30,887 nucleotides of DNA, taken from positions 1-30,887 of IMG/VR virus record IMGVR_UViG_3300033153_016005; one strand, written 5' to 3'. Below the pieces are notes generated by a model, which was given only the letters and a program-made list of their open reading frames with translations, ran no database searches and had not been told where the DNA came from. Below are positions 20,520-30,755 of the stretch, piece by piece; the first letter of the stretch is position 1, and every line of letters starts with the position of its first letter. Both the position numbers and the translations under genes were made by a program. The stretch comes from a virus.

Positions 20520-20694
20520 GATCGGTTCTCACGCCATGTTTTTGCAGCCAGACTGTCGTGCCGAATTCTCGTGTCTCAAAAAAAACCGGCGTCCACCCCG
20601 GAGGAGGATAGTAAGGCTTGTCCTCGTTTTTTCTCGGGATCGCGGCGCTCATGTAGACGCCTGTTAAATATTCATCAGCAGCGTTTTCCGCCAT
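20512..20694 (-). CDS. Small protein, unknown
   Basis: A 60-residue protein with a Pro-rich middle (KPYYPPPGWTPVFFETREFG) and no known motif. It overlaps both neighbours: 20 bases with the MazG-like gene and 8 with gemA, which supports real translation within the operon. Confidence 0.5.
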   Translation of the reverse strand: MAENAADEYLTGVYMSAAIPRKNEDKPYYPPPGWTPVFFETREFGTTVWLQKHGVRTDHD

Positions 20695-20998
20695 GCATCT
20701 TCTCTCTCGATCTGTTCAATTTACATTTTTTCAGGACTTCTGCCTCCAGGTTGATCCCCATGGCCTCGCAAGTATCCATCAGCCTGATTTGAATATCGGC
20801 AAGCTCCTCTTTAAAATTATCAAAGTCGTTCTGCCGGTAAGCCTCCATGGCCTCGGCGGCTTCGCTCACAATGAGCATTAGCCATCTGGGAATGAGGTCC
20901 TGAACCTCGAAGCAGAACTCGGGCGCCGGATCGTGATCATGAAACCCGCGGTCATGGACGATCATGTAACAGATGGATTGAAGTTCTTTGAAATCCAT
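20675..20998 (-). CDS. MazG-like nucleotide pyrophosphohydrolase
   Basis: A 107-residue all-alpha NTP pyrophosphatase-like protein. The metal-binding pattern is visible as SEAAEAMEAY (Glu46, Glu49) and KEELADIQIRLMD (Glu65, Asp68), with the family's typical end KCKLNRSRE...HGGKRC. Such enzymes hydrolyse (d)NTPs and in phages may lower alarmone or aberrant nucleotide levels. The ATG follows directly on the TGA of the upstream HTH gene, with GGAGG five bases upstream. Confidence 0.8.
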   Translation of the reverse strand: MDFKELQSICYMIVHDRGFHDHDPAPEFCFEVQDLIPRWLMLIVSEAAEAMEAYRQNDFDNFKEELADIQIRLMDTCEAMGINLEAEVLKKCKLNRSREKMHGGKRC

Positions 20999-22749: not shown

Positions 22750-23208
22750 TCAAAGCGCCTCCACGTAAGCGGTTTGCTCGGTCTCGACTTTGATTCCCAG
22801 GGCCGAGAGCTGCTCGGGCGTGGCTTCCGCCCGGATGCGATCCTTGTTGAGCTCTTCCTTTACGCGGACGAACTGGCCGAGGGAGAGTTTTTTGGCTTTG
22901 TCGATCACCTTTTGAAGCGGGCTCGGATATTTGTATCTCTCCGTCGTCCTGATGGTGATCCGCGTGTGGGTCAATGTGATCTGTCCCCTGGTGCCCTCGT
23001 CGCGCTCATCGGTGGTGAGCGCCCAATCGCCTAATGCCTCCAGGAGGGTCTTATCCTTTTTTTCCAGGGGATCGATCTCCTTCTTTGCGGCCGCTTTTAT
23101 GTTCGCGATTTTTTTGTCCCGCTCAGCTTTTGCCGCTTCGATCTTGCGCTCGAGCTCGAGATGCTCGAGGCCCGCCTTGTCAGCCTGTTCAATGTTTCGT
23201 ATCTGCAT
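22750..23208 (-). CDS. gam: Gam-like host-nuclease inhibitor
   Basis: A 152-residue protein like Mu Gam, which coats double-stranded DNA ends and blocks host exonucleases; Mu Gam is a homologue of Ku. The N-terminal coiled coil (KIEAAKAERDKKIANIKAAAKKEI) is followed by the beta core around RGQITLTHTRITIRTTERYKY and the helical QLSALGIKVE end. It lies after the transposition activator, as in Mu. The ATG has AGAGGA upstream, and a hairpin (23239-23254) lies further upstream. Confidence 0.85.
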   Translation of the reverse strand: MQIRNIEQADKAGLEHLELERKIEAAKAERDKKIANIKAAAKKEIDPLEKKDKTLLEALGDWALTTDERDEGTRGQITLTHTRITIRTTERYKYPSPLQKVIDKAKKLSLGQFVRVKEELNKDRIRAEATPEQLSALGIKVETEQTAYVEAL

Positions 23209-23310: not shown

Positions 23311-24438
23311 CTATCCGGGGGCCGTGGCGACCAATTCCGAGTCGATCTTTTTCTTTTGCAGCTCGCAGGCCTGGTTGACCAGATACGAGCAGAAGTTGTT
23401 TATCGCGAGCGGCGGCGCGCCTTTTTTGAAATACGAGGCCACCCCTTTGAGTCCGCCGTCGTCGAATACCCGGGCCGCGCTCTCTTTCACGCGCGAGAAT
23501 TTCCATTCGATGTATTTGGGAATCTCGGCCGGGCGGAGTCCGGGGAGCTCGACCAGGCGGCACCTCCTGGTCACCTCCCTGATCCGCATGTCTTGCCACA
23601 TCTCGCGGAGCTCCGACTGCGCCAGGAGCACTATGGCCAGGGGAGAAGAGTAACCGAACTGTATCTCGTGCAGCCTCTTCAGGGCCTTCACCGTCCTCAT
23701 GGGCAGGCAGTGGGCCTCCTCGATCGCAAGGACGGCGCTGATCCCCTCGGAGTCATAGAGATTGAGGAGGTCCCGAATCTGCCGATCGCGGGCCTCCTTG
23801 GTGCCCCTGATGCCCTCGTTGTAATCCTCACGCTCGGAGCCGAGGTCGCGGATGATGGCCTCCTGCAAGTTGTAAACCGTGAGTCTCTCCTTTTCCATGA
23901 TGAGAGGTTTTATGATGCGATAATTGTCCCCCAACCGCTCGGCCATCTCGGTCCACATGAGCGTCTTGCCCGCGCCCACGTCTCCCCACAGGGCGCAGAA
24001 CCCCTTGCGGCTGACCGCCTTTTCGATCACCGCCGCGGCCCGCTTCCAGCCCGCCGTCTTGAAAAGGTCGGCTGCGCCTGCGACCGCGTTCCGGTCAAAA
24101 GGATCTTCTTTGAGATTGAAATGGTTCATTGCTTCCGTGCTTATCATCTCTCCCTCCCACGCGAGAGCCTCGCGGGACACGGCTTTGCCGGCCTCCGCGG
24201 CTCTCTCGTTTTTTGCCGGCGTGCCGCGCCAGATCATGAACAGCCGTTCCTCCGGGACTCCCGCCTCCCGCAGGTAACTCTCGATCCTTTTCTTGAGTCC
24301 GTTTTTTTTGTCCTTTTGCGTGAATTCTCCTTTGTTTATCACATTCGAAAGGTTGGTGGCCGGCACCCGGAGGTCCCTGGCCATCTGCCTCGTGCCGATC
24401 TGCGCCTCTTCCATCACCGCTTTCAGCATAATTTTCAC
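23311..24438 (-). CDS. AAA+ transposition activator (MuB role)
   Basis: A protein of about 375 residues. An N-terminal HTH-like segment (TRQMARDLRVPATNLSNVIN) precedes an ExeA/TniB-like ATPase: NHFNLKEDPFD, Walker A GDVGAGKT (about 152-159), Walker B AVLAIEEAH (about 235-243), sensor LLAQSEL. MuB-type proteins bind target DNA, stimulate the transposase and give target immunity. It follows the transposase and precedes gam, as in Mu. GTG at 24438 with AAAGGTG eight bases upstream is preferred over ATG at 24489, which would overrun the 44-aa gene and lacks a ribosome site. Confidence 0.88.
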   Translation of the reverse strand: MKIMLKAVMEEAQIGTRQMARDLRVPATNLSNVINKGEFTQKDKKNGLKKRIESYLREAGVPEERLFMIWRGTPAKNERAAEAGKAVSREALAWEGEMISTEAMNHFNLKEDPFDRNAVAGAADLFKTAGWKRAAAVIEKAVSRKGFCALWGDVGAGKTLMWTEMAERLGDNYRIIKPLIMEKERLTVYNLQEAIIRDLGSEREDYNEGIRGTKEARDRQIRDLLNLYDSEGISAVLAIEEAHCLPMRTVKALKRLHEIQFGYSSPLAIVLLAQSELREMWQDMRIREVTRRCRLVELPGLRPAEIPKYIEWKFSRVKESAARVFDDGGLKGVASYFKKGAPPLAINNFCSYLVNQACELQKKKIDSELVATAPG

Positions 24439-24445
24439 TTTTGCA

Positions 24446-24580
24446 TCACCTTTCTGCTTCGTACGTTCTTTTTGTCTGCAGGGGTGCATACCACTTGATC
24501 CAGCCGAGATGCTCCTCGGCGTTGTTCAACAGTATCCAGCGCCGCGTCTTCCCGGGCGGCTCGACGTGCTGCTCAATCAC
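24446..24580 (-). CDS. 44-aa protein with LGWIKWYAP motif
   Basis: A short protein with a conserved-looking core (RRWILLNNAEEHLGWIKWYA). The LG-x-I-x-WY-x-P pattern is familiar from small phage and prophage proteins of unknown function. It starts with GTG overlapping the upstream TGA (GTGA) and ends just before the MuB-like gene, so it exactly fills the gap. The usual ending after the motif (WRxYCFFP in relatives, from memory) is replaced by a basic tail. Confidence 0.65.
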   Translation of the reverse strand: MIEQHVEPPGKTRRWILLNNAEEHLGWIKWYAPLQTKRTYEAER

Positions 24581-24801
24581 TTTGAGGTATTTCCCATCCC
24601 TCCGGAATCGGGGGATTCGCCTTGTTCAACGTTCATGTGGTATATTTCCCCGCGCTCTCTCTCAATAGCTTCAGCGCAGAGATCCACGCAGTAGTTGCAT
24701 ATCCAAGCGGTCGCATCCCTGCCGGGAGCGCCGTTAGAGATCATCAGGAAGACGCTTTTAAGCGGCCGCTGACAAAAATTGCAATGCACCCCTCCCGTCA
24801 T
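24577..24801 (-). CDS. ClpX zinc-finger-like small protein
   Basis: A 74-residue protein with a C4 zinc finger: Cys7-x2-Cys10 and Cys35-x2-Cys38. The second half, ICNYCVDLCAEAIERE, closely resembles the ClpX N-terminal zinc-binding domain (ICxECVDLCNxII in ClpX). No AAA+ part is present. In ClpX this domain dimerises and recognises adaptors and substrates including Mu proteins, so the phage version may divert or tune host ClpX. It lies just upstream of the 44-aa and MuB-like genes. AGGAGG lies seven bases before the ATG. Confidence 0.75.
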   Translation of the reverse strand: MTGGVHCNFCQRPLKSVFLMISNGAPGRDATAWICNYCVDLCAEAIERERGEIYHMNVEQGESPDSGGMGNTSK

Positions 24802-24971
24802 TTCTGGACCTCCTCTTTTCCCTTGGCGTTCTCTTCCGGCGTGAATCTCCTGTTATGATTGTCCGCCCATGCGAAGCTCTCGGTCTGGGCCTCCGAGTGC
24901 CTGATCGATTCATTATAAGCATGAGTATTTATCGCTTTCAGTCTGGAGACTGTAGCCGGGGACATTTTCAT
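24798..24971 (-). CDS. 57-aa basic protein, unknown
   Basis: A small charged, hydrophilic protein (begins MKMSPATVSRLKAINTHAYN) coupled by ATGA overlaps to both neighbours. The start at 24971 is chosen for the overlap with the DUF5131 stop and the AGAGGAG upstream; a longer frame to 25046 overlaps that gene. I recognise no motif. Confidence 0.5.
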   Translation of the reverse strand: MKMSPATVSRLKAINTHAYNESIRHSEAQTESFAWADNHNRRFTPEENAKGKEEVQK

Positions 24972-25627
24972 CTCTCCTCTGGATACTCCTGAATCTTCTC
25001 CGGCCAGCCAAGGTTGTCCTTGAGAAAAATGGGCGAGCCGCACCATCGCGCATAATGGATCAAGTACTCAATCCATCCGGGATCGGGCTGATAATCTTTG
25101 GAGCGCGGGCCCGTAAGCGCGCCGATGATGATCCAATCGGGCGTGAACAAACCCGGCTCGATAGGTCGCAAAAGCGGCTCGCAGGAGACAAACTTGATGT
25201 GGCCCGGAAGCATGTCATCGAGCTGAAGGGCATTATAAGCGTTATCCCATTGTGCCTGGTCGGTGGCCGTGGCCCCCAGCCAGCAGTTGGCCGGAATGCG
25301 GCCGACGAATTCGCGGTAGCGATGCGGATTCTTGGTGAGAAAAATGAATGTGTGTTGCGGATAGCCAGCCGCCGCGGCGAATATGCGTTCTATCGTGTCC
25401 CATGGCACCCACTCGCCGAAGATGTCCGTCATGCTCCCGACAAAAATCCGGGCAGGTTTTTTCATCTTGCGCGGCCCATCGAGATCGTCCAGATGCGCCT
25501 GCTTGCGATAATCATGCCCAAACCTTTGGATTATCCCGGCCGCATAACAATACCAGCATCTGTGGCGGCAGACGGTACGCAGGGGATTCCATGTAAAATC
25601 GCACCATTCGATTTTTGTGTGATTCAT
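24968..25627 (-). CDS. DUF5131 (phage Gp37/Gp68) family protein
   Basis: A 219-residue protein with the family start TKIEWCDFTWNPLRTVC and a Cys cluster C20-x3-C24-x2-C27 (CRHRCWYCYA), the spacing of radical-SAM iron-sulfur sites. Further family elements are RIFVGSMTDIFG and FIFLTKNPHRY. The substrate of the family is not known to me. The ATG overlaps the transposase stop by one base (TGATG). It is an insertion between transposase and MuB-like genes, absent in Mu. Confidence 0.85.
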   Translation of the reverse strand: MNHTKIEWCDFTWNPLRTVCRHRCWYCYAAGIIQRFGHDYRKQAHLDDLDGPRKMKKPARIFVGSMTDIFGEWVPWDTIERIFAAAAGYPQHTFIFLTKNPHRYREFVGRIPANCWLGATATDQAQWDNAYNALQLDDMLPGHIKFVSCEPLLRPIEPGLFTPDWIIIGALTGPRSKDYQPDPGWIEYLIHYARWCGSPIFLKDNLGWPEKIQEYPEER

Positions 25628-27423
25628 CAGGCCCCCTCTTCCTCTATATTCTCCGTGTCTCCATATTCTCTGTGTGAGATATCTTCCGCCAGTTCCATCA
25701 CTTGGTCGCGCGTCCGGCATAAGGCGCATTGATCGGCCTCGTCCTCCGTGAGCGGCCTCCCCAGCTCGCGCCGAAGGATCATCAATGCCTGGGTGTTCGA
25801 TATCTCCGGCGGCCGGGAGATATCCGTCTCCAGGGAATGTCGATGTCCCTGCAACGAGATGTCCGCCAACGGCGCTACCTTGTCCAGATGTCCCTCGAAC
25901 GGCCGCAGGCCATTTGCCGTCTCGGCCTCAATCTGCTCCAGCGTGGGGAGCTCTTTGATGTTGCGCTGGGTGTCGGTGTCGCGCCAGCTCGAATATTCTT
26001 CACCCCACACCGCGGTCTTCTCGCCGATCCGGAAGCCCGACTCCGGATGCCTCAGAACCTCCAATGCTTCGTATTTGTGTATTTCTCCATCCGGACTCAC
26101 CCACGTCACATCAACAGCTCTCCGCGGGCATGTGCCGGTAAGGTCCCGCGATGTTTCATCCGGATCTGCGTGCGCCTGTGCAGGCGCCCAACGATATGGA
26201 TTGAGAGAGATCAGCACTTTTTTGCCCTCGAGGTTCGGGTCGGGGACCCGGAACTCGGAGCCTTTATATTTCACGATCAAGTTGCTCATTACCGTGCGCT
26301 CCTCGGGCTTTGAGCGCAGGAGTTCTTTGCACGTCTCCATCGGCGGCAGGGTCCTGAACTTGTCGGGCGGGATGGTGAGCCACATCTTCGAGCGCGAGAT
26401 GCCCGTGCGGGAAAGCGGCTTTTCGGCGTTGAGACGGGCGCACATCTCGAGGGCCCATCGGTTCAGCGTGTCGAGATCGGGCGCGGGCTGGATCGAGAGC
26501 CGGCTCTCGAACTGCTGCTCCCAAAACCACATCATGCCCTCGACCGACCCCTTGGCCCTCGGGTTGCCCGGCAGGTGCGGGATGGTGCGCACGTTGAGCG
26601 AGCCGGTGAGATGCGATACCATGTCACTCACGTTTGCCGAGCCGCCGTCAAAAACCAAAATCTCGGGCAGTCCTCGAAGCGGGTATATACCCGCTGGTAA
26701 AGCCACATTCTGGTCACAGTCCGAGCCGGGCCCGGCCCAGACTTCAAGGAGGAATTCACACACATCGATGGCTCGCTCTCCCGCGGCATAGCGATACTGC
26801 ACGTAAAAGGCGTTGGAATAATGGTCTACCAGCATGAAGCGCAGGAGTGATTTTTTTATTTTTTTGATGTTCTCAGGTTTTTTGATGTAGAACTCTTTTT
26901 TCATATCTCTATGCTTCAACGCGGCAGAGGGGCCGTCCCTGCCGAAAAAATACTGGACGCAATTGGTGATATCGAACTGGTGCACGTGGTTGGGGTGCTT
27001 GGAGATCATATTGATGTGGGGTCCGAGATCGGTATCGTGCTCGATCTGCCGGCGCGTCATGCGGTCTTCTCTCAGATAACGATTCAGGGTGGAGCAGGAT
27101 ATGGGCTCGGATATGTATCCAGCTCCGATTGCCACATCGAGCGCCACGTTCATGGGCATGATGGTGTGGCGGTCTTTTCTCTTGGAAAGTTGAACGAAAC
27201 GCTCTATTGTTTCGATCTGCGCATTGTCTAGGCTGCGCCTGCCCTTGTCTGAACGGGTGCGGCGGCCGCTGCTCCAGCCGCCGGCCCGCGCCAGACGATA
27301 CACCGTCCGCTCCGAGCATGACCACAATCGCATCAACTGCTGAGCAGCCATCTTCCGCTTTGCCGCGTCATCTCCCGCTTCGGTGAAGGCGTGGAAGGCG
27401 ATCTTTTTGCGCTCGTCTTTCAT
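25627..27423 (-). CDS. DDE transposase (MuA role)
   Basis: A 598-residue transposase. An N-terminal HTH region (LMRLWSCSERTVYRLARAGGW) is followed by a further DNA-binding part and an rve-like catalytic core: D151 (HQFDITNCV), D259 (LVFDGGSAN) and E295 (KGSVEGMM), with the classic 35 residues between second D and E. A beta-barrel-type region (SNLIVKYKGSEFRVPD) follows. It cuts and joins phage ends for integration and replicative transposition. The C-terminal tail (ISNTQALMILRRELGRPLTEDEADQ) may hold MuB/ClpX contacts. A perfect palindrome lies in the coding sequence at 26678-26695. Confidence 0.95.
   Translation of the reverse strand: MKDERKKIAFHAFTEAGDDAAKRKMAAQQLMRLWSCSERTVYRLARAGGWSSGRRTRSDKGRRSLDNAQIETIERFVQLSKRKDRHTIMPMNVALDVAIGAGYISEPISCSTLNRYLREDRMTRRQIEHDTDLGPHINMISKHPNHVHQFDITNCVQYFFGRDGPSAALKHRDMKKEFYIKKPENIKKIKKSLLRFMLVDHYSNAFYVQYRYAAGERAIDVCEFLLEVWAGPGSDCDQNVALPAGIYPLRGLPEILVFDGGSANVSDMVSHLTGSLNVRTIPHLPGNPRAKGSVEGMMWFWEQQFESRLSIQPAPDLDTLNRWALEMCARLNAEKPLSRTGISRSKMWLTIPPDKFRTLPPMETCKELLRSKPEERTVMSNLIVKYKGSEFRVPDPNLEGKKVLISLNPYRWAPAQAHADPDETSRDLTGTCPRRAVDVTWVSPDGEIHKYEALEVLRHPESGFRIGEKTAVWGEEYSSWRDTDTQRNIKELPTLEQIEAETANGLRPFEGHLDKVAPLADISLQGHRHSLETDISRPPEISNTQALMILRRELGRPLTEDEADQCALCRTRDQVMELAEDISHREYGDTENIEEEGA
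26678..26695. repeat. 18-bp perfect palindrome inside the transposase gene
   Basis: AGCGGGTATATACCCGCT is its own reverse complement. It lies about 730 bases into the transposase gene. It could be a protein site or a hairpin with an ATAT loop; it may also be chance. Confidence 0.45.
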
Positions 27424-28228: not shown

Positions 28229-28610
28229 AATATTCCTCCTTCATCCCCGCGCTTGCCTCGTCGATTTCGTTGAGCTTTTGGTTGAGGTCCTTGAGTTCTT
28301 GTGTGAGTCTCTTGCGCTCGGCCAGGAGAGCCCGCGCCTTTTCAGCCAATTTGTTTCCTTTCGGTTGCCTGTTATCTGATCGCACAACGGCTGGTCCAGG
28401 CCCGCCCGCGGACGTATGCCTGCAATGAGGGCAGATGTCCAGCTCGAGGTTGGTCCCGTCCTTCACTGTCGTCCATCCCGCGCCCGCGCCAATCCGGCGG
28501 GCCTTTGACATGGATGAGCCGTTCGAGCTGGCCCGAAAGCAAAAATGGCACCCCTCCGCCCGCACGTTGCAGAACAACCATGTACCCGACGGCAAAGCTT
28601 TCACGCTCAT
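28218..28610 (-). CDS. Cys4 zinc-binding protein with coiled coil
   Basis: A 130-residue protein. Cysteines at about 14, 21, 24 and a CPHC at about 61-64 make a zinc site around GWTTVKDGTNLELDICPHC, a pattern common in phage proteins. A Lys/Glu/Leu coiled coil follows (LLAERKRLTQELKDLNQKL). The ATG overlaps the upstream TGA (ATGA) and has GGAGGT six bases upstream. It is probably nucleic-acid-binding or a protein-contact module. Confidence 0.65.
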   Translation of the reverse strand: MSVKALPSGTWLFCNVRAEGCHFCFRASSNGSSMSKARRIGAGAGWTTVKDGTNLELDICPHCRHTSAGGPGPAVVRSDNRQPKGNKLAEKARALLAERKRLTQELKDLNQKLNEIDEASAGMKEEYCGQ

Positions 28611-29155
28611 ATGATCACCTCCATGGTCATGCGCCCCCTCTTTTTGTATTTTCCGGTGCGGGACTTGTAGGGCAGGTATTTGCGCTCGCGAAGGTGGACG
28701 TCGAGTATTTCGTTCACCAGCCGGGCAAAGGTGATGCGCGTCCCCGCGCATTTCAGATCCCTCTCGTATTGGGTAAGGGCGCGCTTTATATCGGGCTCGA
28801 GCCGGACGCTCCGGCCGTTCTTGCGATATTCTTTAAGCCAACATGCCTGGCACAGGCCCGCTGTATGGCGGCGGGCCTTCTTTCCGCAGTGGGGGCAGGT
28901 GATAGGCAGTTTTTTCTGTGCCCGGTCATGGCATGATTTGCATACGCGGCCGGTGTTGCTCCTATATAGAAGAGGTCGGAGCTTGCCGCATTCGGGGCAG
29001 AGCGCGGTCAGCTCTTTGCGCCGCACCCGCAGGTAACAGGCGCCGCACAGTCCGCGCCCCAGGTGCGGGAGGGCCCGTCCGCACTCCTTGCAGATGATGA
29101 GCGGCCTTTCTGGGCGCGCGGGCGGGCGCCGCGGCTTTCCTTGCGGGTCAGTCAT
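28607..29155 (-). CDS. Triple zinc-ribbon protein with RHH-like end
   Basis: A 182-residue basic protein with three Cys4 ribbons in a row: CKEC/CGAC, CPEC/CKSC and CPHC/CQAC. A C-terminal segment (GRSVRLEPDIKRALTQYERD, then FARLVNEILDVHL) resembles a ribbon-helix-helix DNA-binding unit. It is likely a nucleic-acid-binding regulator of the early region. The ATG overlaps the upstream TGA and has GGGGAG eight bases upstream; the frame to 29500 is overrun. Confidence 0.7.
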   Translation of the reverse strand: MTDPQGKPRRPPARPERPLIICKECGRALPHLGRGLCGACYLRVRRKELTALCPECGKLRPLLYRSNTGRVCKSCHDRAQKKLPITCPHCGKKARRHTAGLCQACWLKEYRKNGRSVRLEPDIKRALTQYERDLKCAGTRITFARLVNEILDVHLRERKYLPYKSRTGKYKKRGRMTMEVII

Positions 29156-29538
29156 GGGTGGTTCTCCCCGGCCTGTTCCGCGATCTCTTTCTCGCGCTCG
29201 TCCATGATGGCGTTCGCCCTCTCCTGGGCGTTTATGGGCCGGGCTTTTTGAGTTGGCGCCCCATCCGGGCACATGCCCGCAAATCTTTGGGCGAGACCCA
29301 GCGCCAGGCGGTGGGGAAGATGTGTCTGGAGATATTCGGTCAACCTCCACAATGAGCCGCGCTGCTCGGCGATCCCGAGGCGTTCCCACGTTGCCAGGAT
29401 GCGGCGGATTTTGGTTTGGGTGAGCCCGGTGTCCGCGGCAAGCTCGGCGATGGAGGCCAGGTCGTACTGGCGCTCCGCCAGGGCCTCGATCACCCGCCAC
29501 GATTCAATCTGCAGCCCGTTTATCAGTTGTTCCGCCAT
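29152..29538 (-). CDS. Winged-helix DNA-binding protein
   Basis: A 128-residue protein whose N-terminal half is a winged helix like IclR/MarR: LASIAELAADTGLTQTKIRRILATWERLGIAE, then a wing (RGSLWRLT). The C-terminal half is helical and charged, without a ligand domain. As one of the first early genes it probably regulates transcription or replication steps. Confidence 0.65.
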   Translation of the reverse strand: MAEQLINGLQIESWRVIEALAERQYDLASIAELAADTGLTQTKIRRILATWERLGIAEQRGSLWRLTEYLQTHLPHRLALGLAQRFAGMCPDGAPTQKARPINAQERANAIMDEREKEIAEQAGENHP

Positions 29539-30168: not shown

Positions 30169-30249
30169 ATGAAAAAAATAAACTCGTCCGAGATGTTGGT
30201 CTTCGGGAATTATCCTGGAAGATATATCCAGGGCGAGAGAAATACTTAA
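30169..30249 (+). CDS. 26-aa leader peptide coupled to the repressor
   Basis: ATG at 30169 after a GGGGGAG ribosome site opens a 26-codon frame (begins MKKINSSEMLVFGNYPG). Its TAA shares one base with the ATG of the repressor (TAATG). The repressor start has no good ribosome site of its own, so translation of the leader may deliver ribosomes to the repressor. Confidence 0.6.
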   Translation: MKKINSSEMLVFGNYPGRYIQGERNT

Positions 30250-30755
30250 TGAGCCAGCGGCCCAAATCTGAATTTGGTCGGCGGCTAGATTCTCTTCGCA
30301 AAGAGGGGGAATTGAAAGGAGAGTTCGCCGGCAGAATAGGAGTTCATTATACCAGTCTGTCTAACTATTATTCTGGAAGAATTCCCGCATCCACAGTGAT
30401 CTTACAAATCTCCCTCCGCACCGGCGTCTCTCCCGATTGGCTCCTGACCGGGCGCGGGCCAAAATTCATACCCCCGGACCATTTGGCAAACCAGGTCCAA
30501 GGCTTCGACCCCGCCCACGAACGCGCCCGCGTCCTGGGCCATAGACATAATAGGGCCATGACGGACAGGGACCGCGTCGAATACATCCACGCCCTCATCC
30601 AGGAGCTCGACCTTAAAAAAGAAGACCGCGACGACCTGGCCGTGCTCTTCTCCGACCTTATCACGGATCCCGATCTCCGTCGGCTCGTCCTCCATTATTA
30701 TACATACCTCTCGCAGGCCAGGCCAGGACAAAAAAGGAAAAAAAGGAGGCCCTAG
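30249..30755 (+). CDS. Phage repressor, XRE-type (C/CI role)
   Basis: A 168-residue protein with an N-terminal HTH (GEFAGRIGVHYTSLSNYYSGRIPASTVILQ) followed by PDWLLTGRG, typical of phage repressors. The C-terminal part is helical and charged (DRDDLAVLFSDL) with a very basic end (GQKRKKRRP). There is no S24 self-cleavage domain, so induction would not be by LexA-type autocleavage. The basic tail might be a protease-recognition region, as the C-terminal end of the Mu repressor is for ClpXP; this is inference. It is divergent from the early operon. Confidence 0.8.
   Translation: MSQRPKSEFGRRLDSLRKEGELKGEFAGRIGVHYTSLSNYYSGRIPASTVILQISLRTGVSPDWLLTGRGPKFIPPDHLANQVQGFDPAHERARVLGHRHNRAMTDRDRVEYIHALIQELDLKKEDRDDLAVLFSDLITDPDLRRLVLHYYTYLSQARPGQKRKKRRP

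Follow-up and report, generated by a model that had tools for sequence, protein, structure and literature searches.

A stand-alone ClpX-type zinc finger gene in the predicted transposition operon of a B3-like phage

Introduction

ClpX remodels the Mu transpososome (PMC3562280), and MuA is contacted by the ClpX N-domain (PMC3983244, PMC5415555). In the zinc-binding domain (ZBD) of E. coli ClpX, Phe16 belongs to a hydrophobic side pocket that is used by TF and overlaps the sites for lambda O, SspB and RssB (PMC7804408). The XB peptide RGGRPALRVVK binds the ClpX N-domain and blocks several substrates (PMC3983244). The isolated E. coli ZBD cross-links as a dimer and, supplied in trans, inhibits RssB-mediated ClpXP degradation of sigma-S (PMC7226468).

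Lone ClpX fingers are an already known kind of phage protein, encoded by the P2-like phage P88, the P1-like phage D6 and Caulobacter phage Cr30. The P88 type carries the RefSeq label 'ClpX C4-type zinc finger protein' and is found in 109 of 5,426 complete E. coli genomes. No paper on phage ClpX zinc finger proteins or on the function of the lone domain was found in the literature searched. Here we describe a diverged lone finger of this kind that is unusually placed, its gene lying in the early operon of a B3-like phage. The phage is represented by a single entire IMG/VR virus record, 30,887 bases long (hereafter the window).

Results

The finger gene occupies 24577..24801 on the minus strand and encodes the 74-aa product MTGGVHCNFCQRPLKSVFLMISNGAPGRDATAWICNYCVDLCAEAIERERGEIYHMNVEQGESPDSGGMGNTSK, in which the stretch HCNFC...ICNYCVDLCAEAIERE contains two CxxC pairs and the fifth cysteine typical of ClpX. 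The domain spans roughly residues 5-50, and the tail (residues 51-74) is predicted with low confidence. A Shine-Dalgarno sequence, GAGGAGG, lies 7 bases 5' of the ATG at 24801 (24801..24815, minus strand). Read on the minus strand, the start overlaps the stop of the upstream ORF as ATGA and the stop overlaps the start of the downstream ORF as GTGA. With this ribosome-binding site and overlaps with both neighbours, 24577-24801 is a convincing gene. Its small size, together with a single-protein scan of viral_contigs that returned no close relative of the finger, would fit the remnant of a captured and degenerating clpX gene or a spurious ORF. We consider this highly improbable given the clean Shine-Dalgarno sequence, start and stop, the coupling overlaps on both sides, the intact zinc ligands and the many phages that share the same lone-finger architecture; moreover, neither the NCBIfam models nor the PDB sequence search found ClpX-like sequence past residue ~60.

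Residues 6-47 match Pfam PF06689 (zf-C4_ClpX) with an E value of 2.9e-8 and a score of 33.9 bits, above the gathering score of 27. The NCBIfam ClpX models scored only 20.1 and 18 bits against cut-offs of 359 and 371, with just their first ~50 positions matched, and ClpX ZBDs were the best, albeit weak, hits in a PDB sequence search (top hit the E. coli ClpX ZBD 1ovx, E 0.024). The C4 finger is thus real and ClpX-like, and it lacks the ATPase; the AAA+ module that follows the ZBD in the ClpX unfoldase is absent from the 74-aa protein. The first-pass annotation had described it in these terms, and the family searches bear it out. In an alignment of 24 sequences, the zinc ligands C7, C10, C35 and C38 and the fifth cysteine C42 are invariant, as is Phe9. 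At 33.9 bits the window finger is the most diverged of the lone fingers analysed, the others tested scoring 51-69 bits.

The comparison of predicted structure with the ClpX domain that had been proposed as a check was carried out, with the ClpX ZBD fold as the best match. The AlphaFold model had a mean pLDDT of 82, exceeding 90 over most of the domain, and every confident Foldseek match in the PDB was a ClpX ZBD (probability 1.00). VIA-align superimposed the model on 2ds8_B with a Z score of 5.7 and an rmsd of 1.4 over 41 residues, the best unrelated fold reaching 4.2; the rmsd to 1ovx was 1.8 over 38 residues. The modelled fold is not independent proof of the assignment because the 24-row alignment of relatives from which it was built included ClpX, and a model from the single sequence was poor (pLDDT 54).

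Beyond the zinc ligands, the core of the finger retains the ClpX-type residues F9 and V39-D40-L41-C42. By our own residue match, which assumes that the numbering in PMC7804408 omits Met1, Phe9 corresponds to the pocket residue Phe16 of E. coli. A second pocket residue, Ile46, is replaced by Ala45; the phage-encoded full-length ClpX L226 and the lone finger L236 have alanine at this position as well. The two cysteine pairs are separated by 5-6 residues more than usual, and a similarly long loop is present in a genuine full-length ClpX (L336) and in two lone fingers (L340:8001-8144 and L344:8001-8135).

The genes around the finger, all on the minus strand, run in the order transposase A, DUF5131, a 57-aa ORF, the finger, a 44-aa ORF, the B ATPase and, further on, Gam. 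Transposase A (25627..27423) is a B3-like DDE enzyme (phrog_310, E 6e-47) whose catalytic residues D151, D259 and E295 are kept in the alignment. It is followed by a DUF5131, radical-SAM-like protein with a CX3CX2C motif (24968..25627; PF07505, E 8.1e-39; phrog_2045), whose likely start at 25627 overlaps the stop of A. This gene is interposed between A and B beside the finger, and its relatives are located elsewhere in some B3-like loci. The 57-aa ORF directly upstream of the finger (24798..24971) starts at an internal ATG at 24971 in an ATGA overlap with the DUF5131 gene; it had no Pfam match and no relative among the loci compared. Downstream, the 44-aa ORF (24446..24580) begins with a GTG within the GTGA overlap with the finger gene and had no family match in Pfam or phrog searches. 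A resemblance of this ORF to a truncated small phage protein was set aside, as no family match backs it. The MuB-like B ATPase of the AAA_22 family (23311..24489; PF13401, phrog_296) may start near 24429, as the family alignment suggests, and a Mu Gam-like end-protection protein is encoded at 22750..23208 (PF07352, E 9e-17). A divergent repressor-like HTH protein on the plus strand (30249..30755; phrog_4, phrog_2328) probably controls the early operon. The window also holds a pyrophosphatase-like gene at 20675-20998 (phrog_3301) and, at 28607-29500, a gene whose product contains several CxxC repeats resembling zinc fingers.

By these homology assignments the phage is B3-like (Mu-like) and the finger sits in its early operon, between transposase A and the B ATPase, in agreement with the earlier placement of the gene beside transposition genes. 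Such an arrangement is uncommon. A and B are directly adjacent in B3, JBD67, Ps60, KP12, Mae-JY22, Lsp-JY19, Komp_PAO1_1 and Bhz63, and the gap of 1,102 bases in the window is the longest among 162 same-strand A-B pairs from viral and phage loci. One longer gap, of 2,281 bases, occurred among 77 pairs drawn mostly from bacterial genomes (L302), where the transposase match is unusually long. The finger probably arrived as an accessory gene, along with its DUF5131 and 57-aa neighbours. Other B3-like phages hold different small, cysteine-rich, zinc-ribbon-like ORFs between A and B (L160:5191-5436, L164:7255-7641 and L115:3183-3416), so the A-B interval may generally accommodate small accessory genes.

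No close relative of the window transposase was returned by a single-protein scan of viral_contigs. The nearest relative, L010, has an A protein only 35% identical, with A and B adjacent, and the transposase tree places the window on a long branch in a well-supported clade with 24 members. The best-scoring relatives in bacterial genomes come largely from MAGs of Deltaproteobacteria, Geobacteraceae and Nitrospirae, which makes a host of this kind probable.

A pattern search of ~158 viral A/B loci detected no ClpX-type finger, nor did a PF06689 search of 50 whole viral records. Across more than 230 related A/B loci, a lone finger was present in only one besides the window, the B3-like prophage L250 of a Deltaproteobacteria MAG (SKS3.bin12); with this single further B3-like element, the association of lone fingers with transposition genes recurs but is rare. 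The 53-aa protein of L250, MNIVCSFCGASLGETKQMITGKDQSAICNECVKLCVEILFDQIPKMEVLKHGQ (L250:12641-12802), matches PF06689 with 50.9 bits (E 6.8e-13). Its gene lies in the early operon ~1.7 kb downstream of B and shares a TGATG overlap with the preceding ORF; the transposase A of this element ends in HLRAV, and the genome also has its own full ClpX. Among the matches listed for 277 genomes of the host's class, the L250 finger was the only extra match proven to be lone, the other extra matches being full-length ClpX copies or one sub-threshold fragment.

Lone fingers were found more widely outside transposable phages. Two IMG/VR scans recovered further examples (L179, L184, L205, L219, L220, L228, L231, L234, L240, L340, L344, L351 and others); many further viral contigs had a full-length ClpX gene. 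None of the IMG/VR lone-finger loci contained a match to the B3-like A or B models, and the domain therefore recurs in non-transposing phages. A Mu-transpos_C search of 18 records with lone or fused fingers gave 0 matches and its control likewise gave 0, so that the A/B models alone count here. In one viral-contig protein of 303 aa (L177:2400-3311), a near-canonical ClpX zinc finger is joined to an N-terminal region resembling ParB, and the finger gene of L179 adjoins HTH/LexA-type genes.

These last two contexts, and the divergence, pocket alanine and longer loop of the window finger, would suit a domain reused as an ordinary small zinc module, in a regulator or a DNA-associated protein, with no ClpX role left. 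We think this unlikely, though it deserves weight: the core of the finger keeps its ClpX-type residues beyond the zinc ligands, the finger fused to the ParB-like region is itself nearly canonical ClpX, and no nucleic-acid-binding feature was found. That many unrelated phages, and the early operon of another B3-like element, also have a lone finger argues for its selection as a separate protein.

Many B3-like transposases end in a tail with the consensus xLRVVGG (for example L007:4932-6719, L166:6167-7948 and L162:6152-7939) that resembles the ClpX-docking XB peptide of SspB. The tails of JBD67 (SRPALRVVGGNS) and L166 (NQPALRLIK) are close to the SspB sequence RPALRVVK. Of 181 non-redundant A proteins, 59 have the motif L[RK][VAL][VI] in their final 14 residues, whereas shuffled sequences would give 1.5; because the A proteins share descent, this expectation yields no probability for the enrichment. 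In the comparison sets the motif was found in 1 of 128 B proteins and in 1.5% of other ORFs. The resemblance suggests that many B3-like transposases may dock ClpX through this tail, and a hook for the B ATPase could also fit it. The A protein of the window ends in TENIEEEGA and has no LRVVGG-like tail, as is true of most of its nearest kin, and nothing convincing as an XB-like C-terminus was seen among the other likely gene products of the window. A scenario in which A lost a ClpX-docking tail and the cassette took its place was dropped, L010 and most of the window clade being tail-less as well.

The first-pass annotation had gone further and suggested that the free domain could compete with, recruit or inhibit host ClpX and so time transposition or induction. 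What stands of this is a free, PF06689-matching ClpX-type ZBD in the transposition operon, between A and B, and its plausibility as a competitor; the link to transposition as such was not supported. A finger that competes with host ClpX for the transpososome or the repressor would agree with the gene position, with the second lone finger in the L250 early operon, where transposase A terminates in HLRAV, with the published contact of the ClpX N-domain with MuA (PMC3983244) and remodelling of the Mu transpososome by ClpX (PMC3562280), and with the XB-like tails of many B3-like transposases. Yet the window transposase is tail-less, which means that the target of the free finger is not simply a tail of this type on the phage's own transposase; L250 is the sole further case in more than 230 B3-like loci; and lone fingers are commoner in non-transposing phages, most of them belonging to P2-, P1- and T4-type phages or to contigs with neither a B3-like A nor a B3-like B. 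We therefore regard a role in timing transposition or induction as improbable. A broader scenario strikes us as a long shot: B3-like phages would use ClpX ZBD docking, many via the SspB-like LRVVGG tail of transposase A, and a few, the window phage among them, would additionally encode a free ZBD in the same operon, a competitor that could be tuned to slow or restrict the disassembly of the transpososome by ClpX.

Discussion

Taken together, the published behaviour of the ZBD, the XB peptide and MuA and the anatomy of the window lead us to infer that the finger, as a free ZBD, most likely competes with the docking domain of host ClpX or associates with it. A role as competitor for host ClpX is plausible, its one precedent being the trans inhibition by the isolated E. 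coli ZBD (PMC7226468). The fuller picture, in which a free ZBD is produced at an early lytic stage from a coupled gene of the transposition operon and acts in the host ClpX network, is one that we favour tentatively, at somewhat under even confidence. The finger would be translated early, through translational coupling, and would act by protein-protein contact. It might bind docking peptides that the host ZBD otherwise binds, such as the XB tails of the SspB type, RssB, the transposase or the repressor; alternatively, it might pair with the ZBD of host ClpX, a natural dimer. By either route, the action of ClpX(P) on ZBD-dependent substrates would be lowered or redirected during infection.

A small, clean finger in a transposition operon, with a partner as well studied as ClpX and biochemical assays at hand, makes it directly testable whether phages control ClpX by a free docking domain. 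If ClpX docking by the transposase tails were confirmed, the Mu-ClpX paradigm would extend to another group of transposable phages, with a different recognition signal.

Among known systems, the window finger has in common with the N-terminal ZBD of ClpX (PF06689; PDB 1ovx, 2ds5-2ds8) the zinc-ligand pattern, the fold, the CVDLC motif and the docking-pocket Phe. It differs in the absence of the AAA+ ATPase, the loop longer by 5-6 residues, the Ala at the Ile46 position and an identity of only ~33%. The P88-type protein is likewise lone and ATPase-free and comes from the non-structural part of a temperate phage genome, but its finger is near-canonical, its gene lies close to replication and partition functions in a P2-like phage and it carries ~60 extra N-terminal residues, an extension that the window protein lacks (6 residues ahead of the first cysteine in the alignment, against ~65 in P88). 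Caulobacter phage Cr30 (T4-like) and Escherichia phage D6 (P1-like) also have lone ClpX fingers and, unlike the window phage, no transposition operon. The L250 finger is the closest parallel in setting: it is a small lone finger whose gene, too, is translationally coupled and belongs to the early operon of a transposable phage of the B3-like type, whereas at 53 aa and ~51 bits it is shorter and nearer to ClpX, and its gene lies downstream of B and not between A and B.
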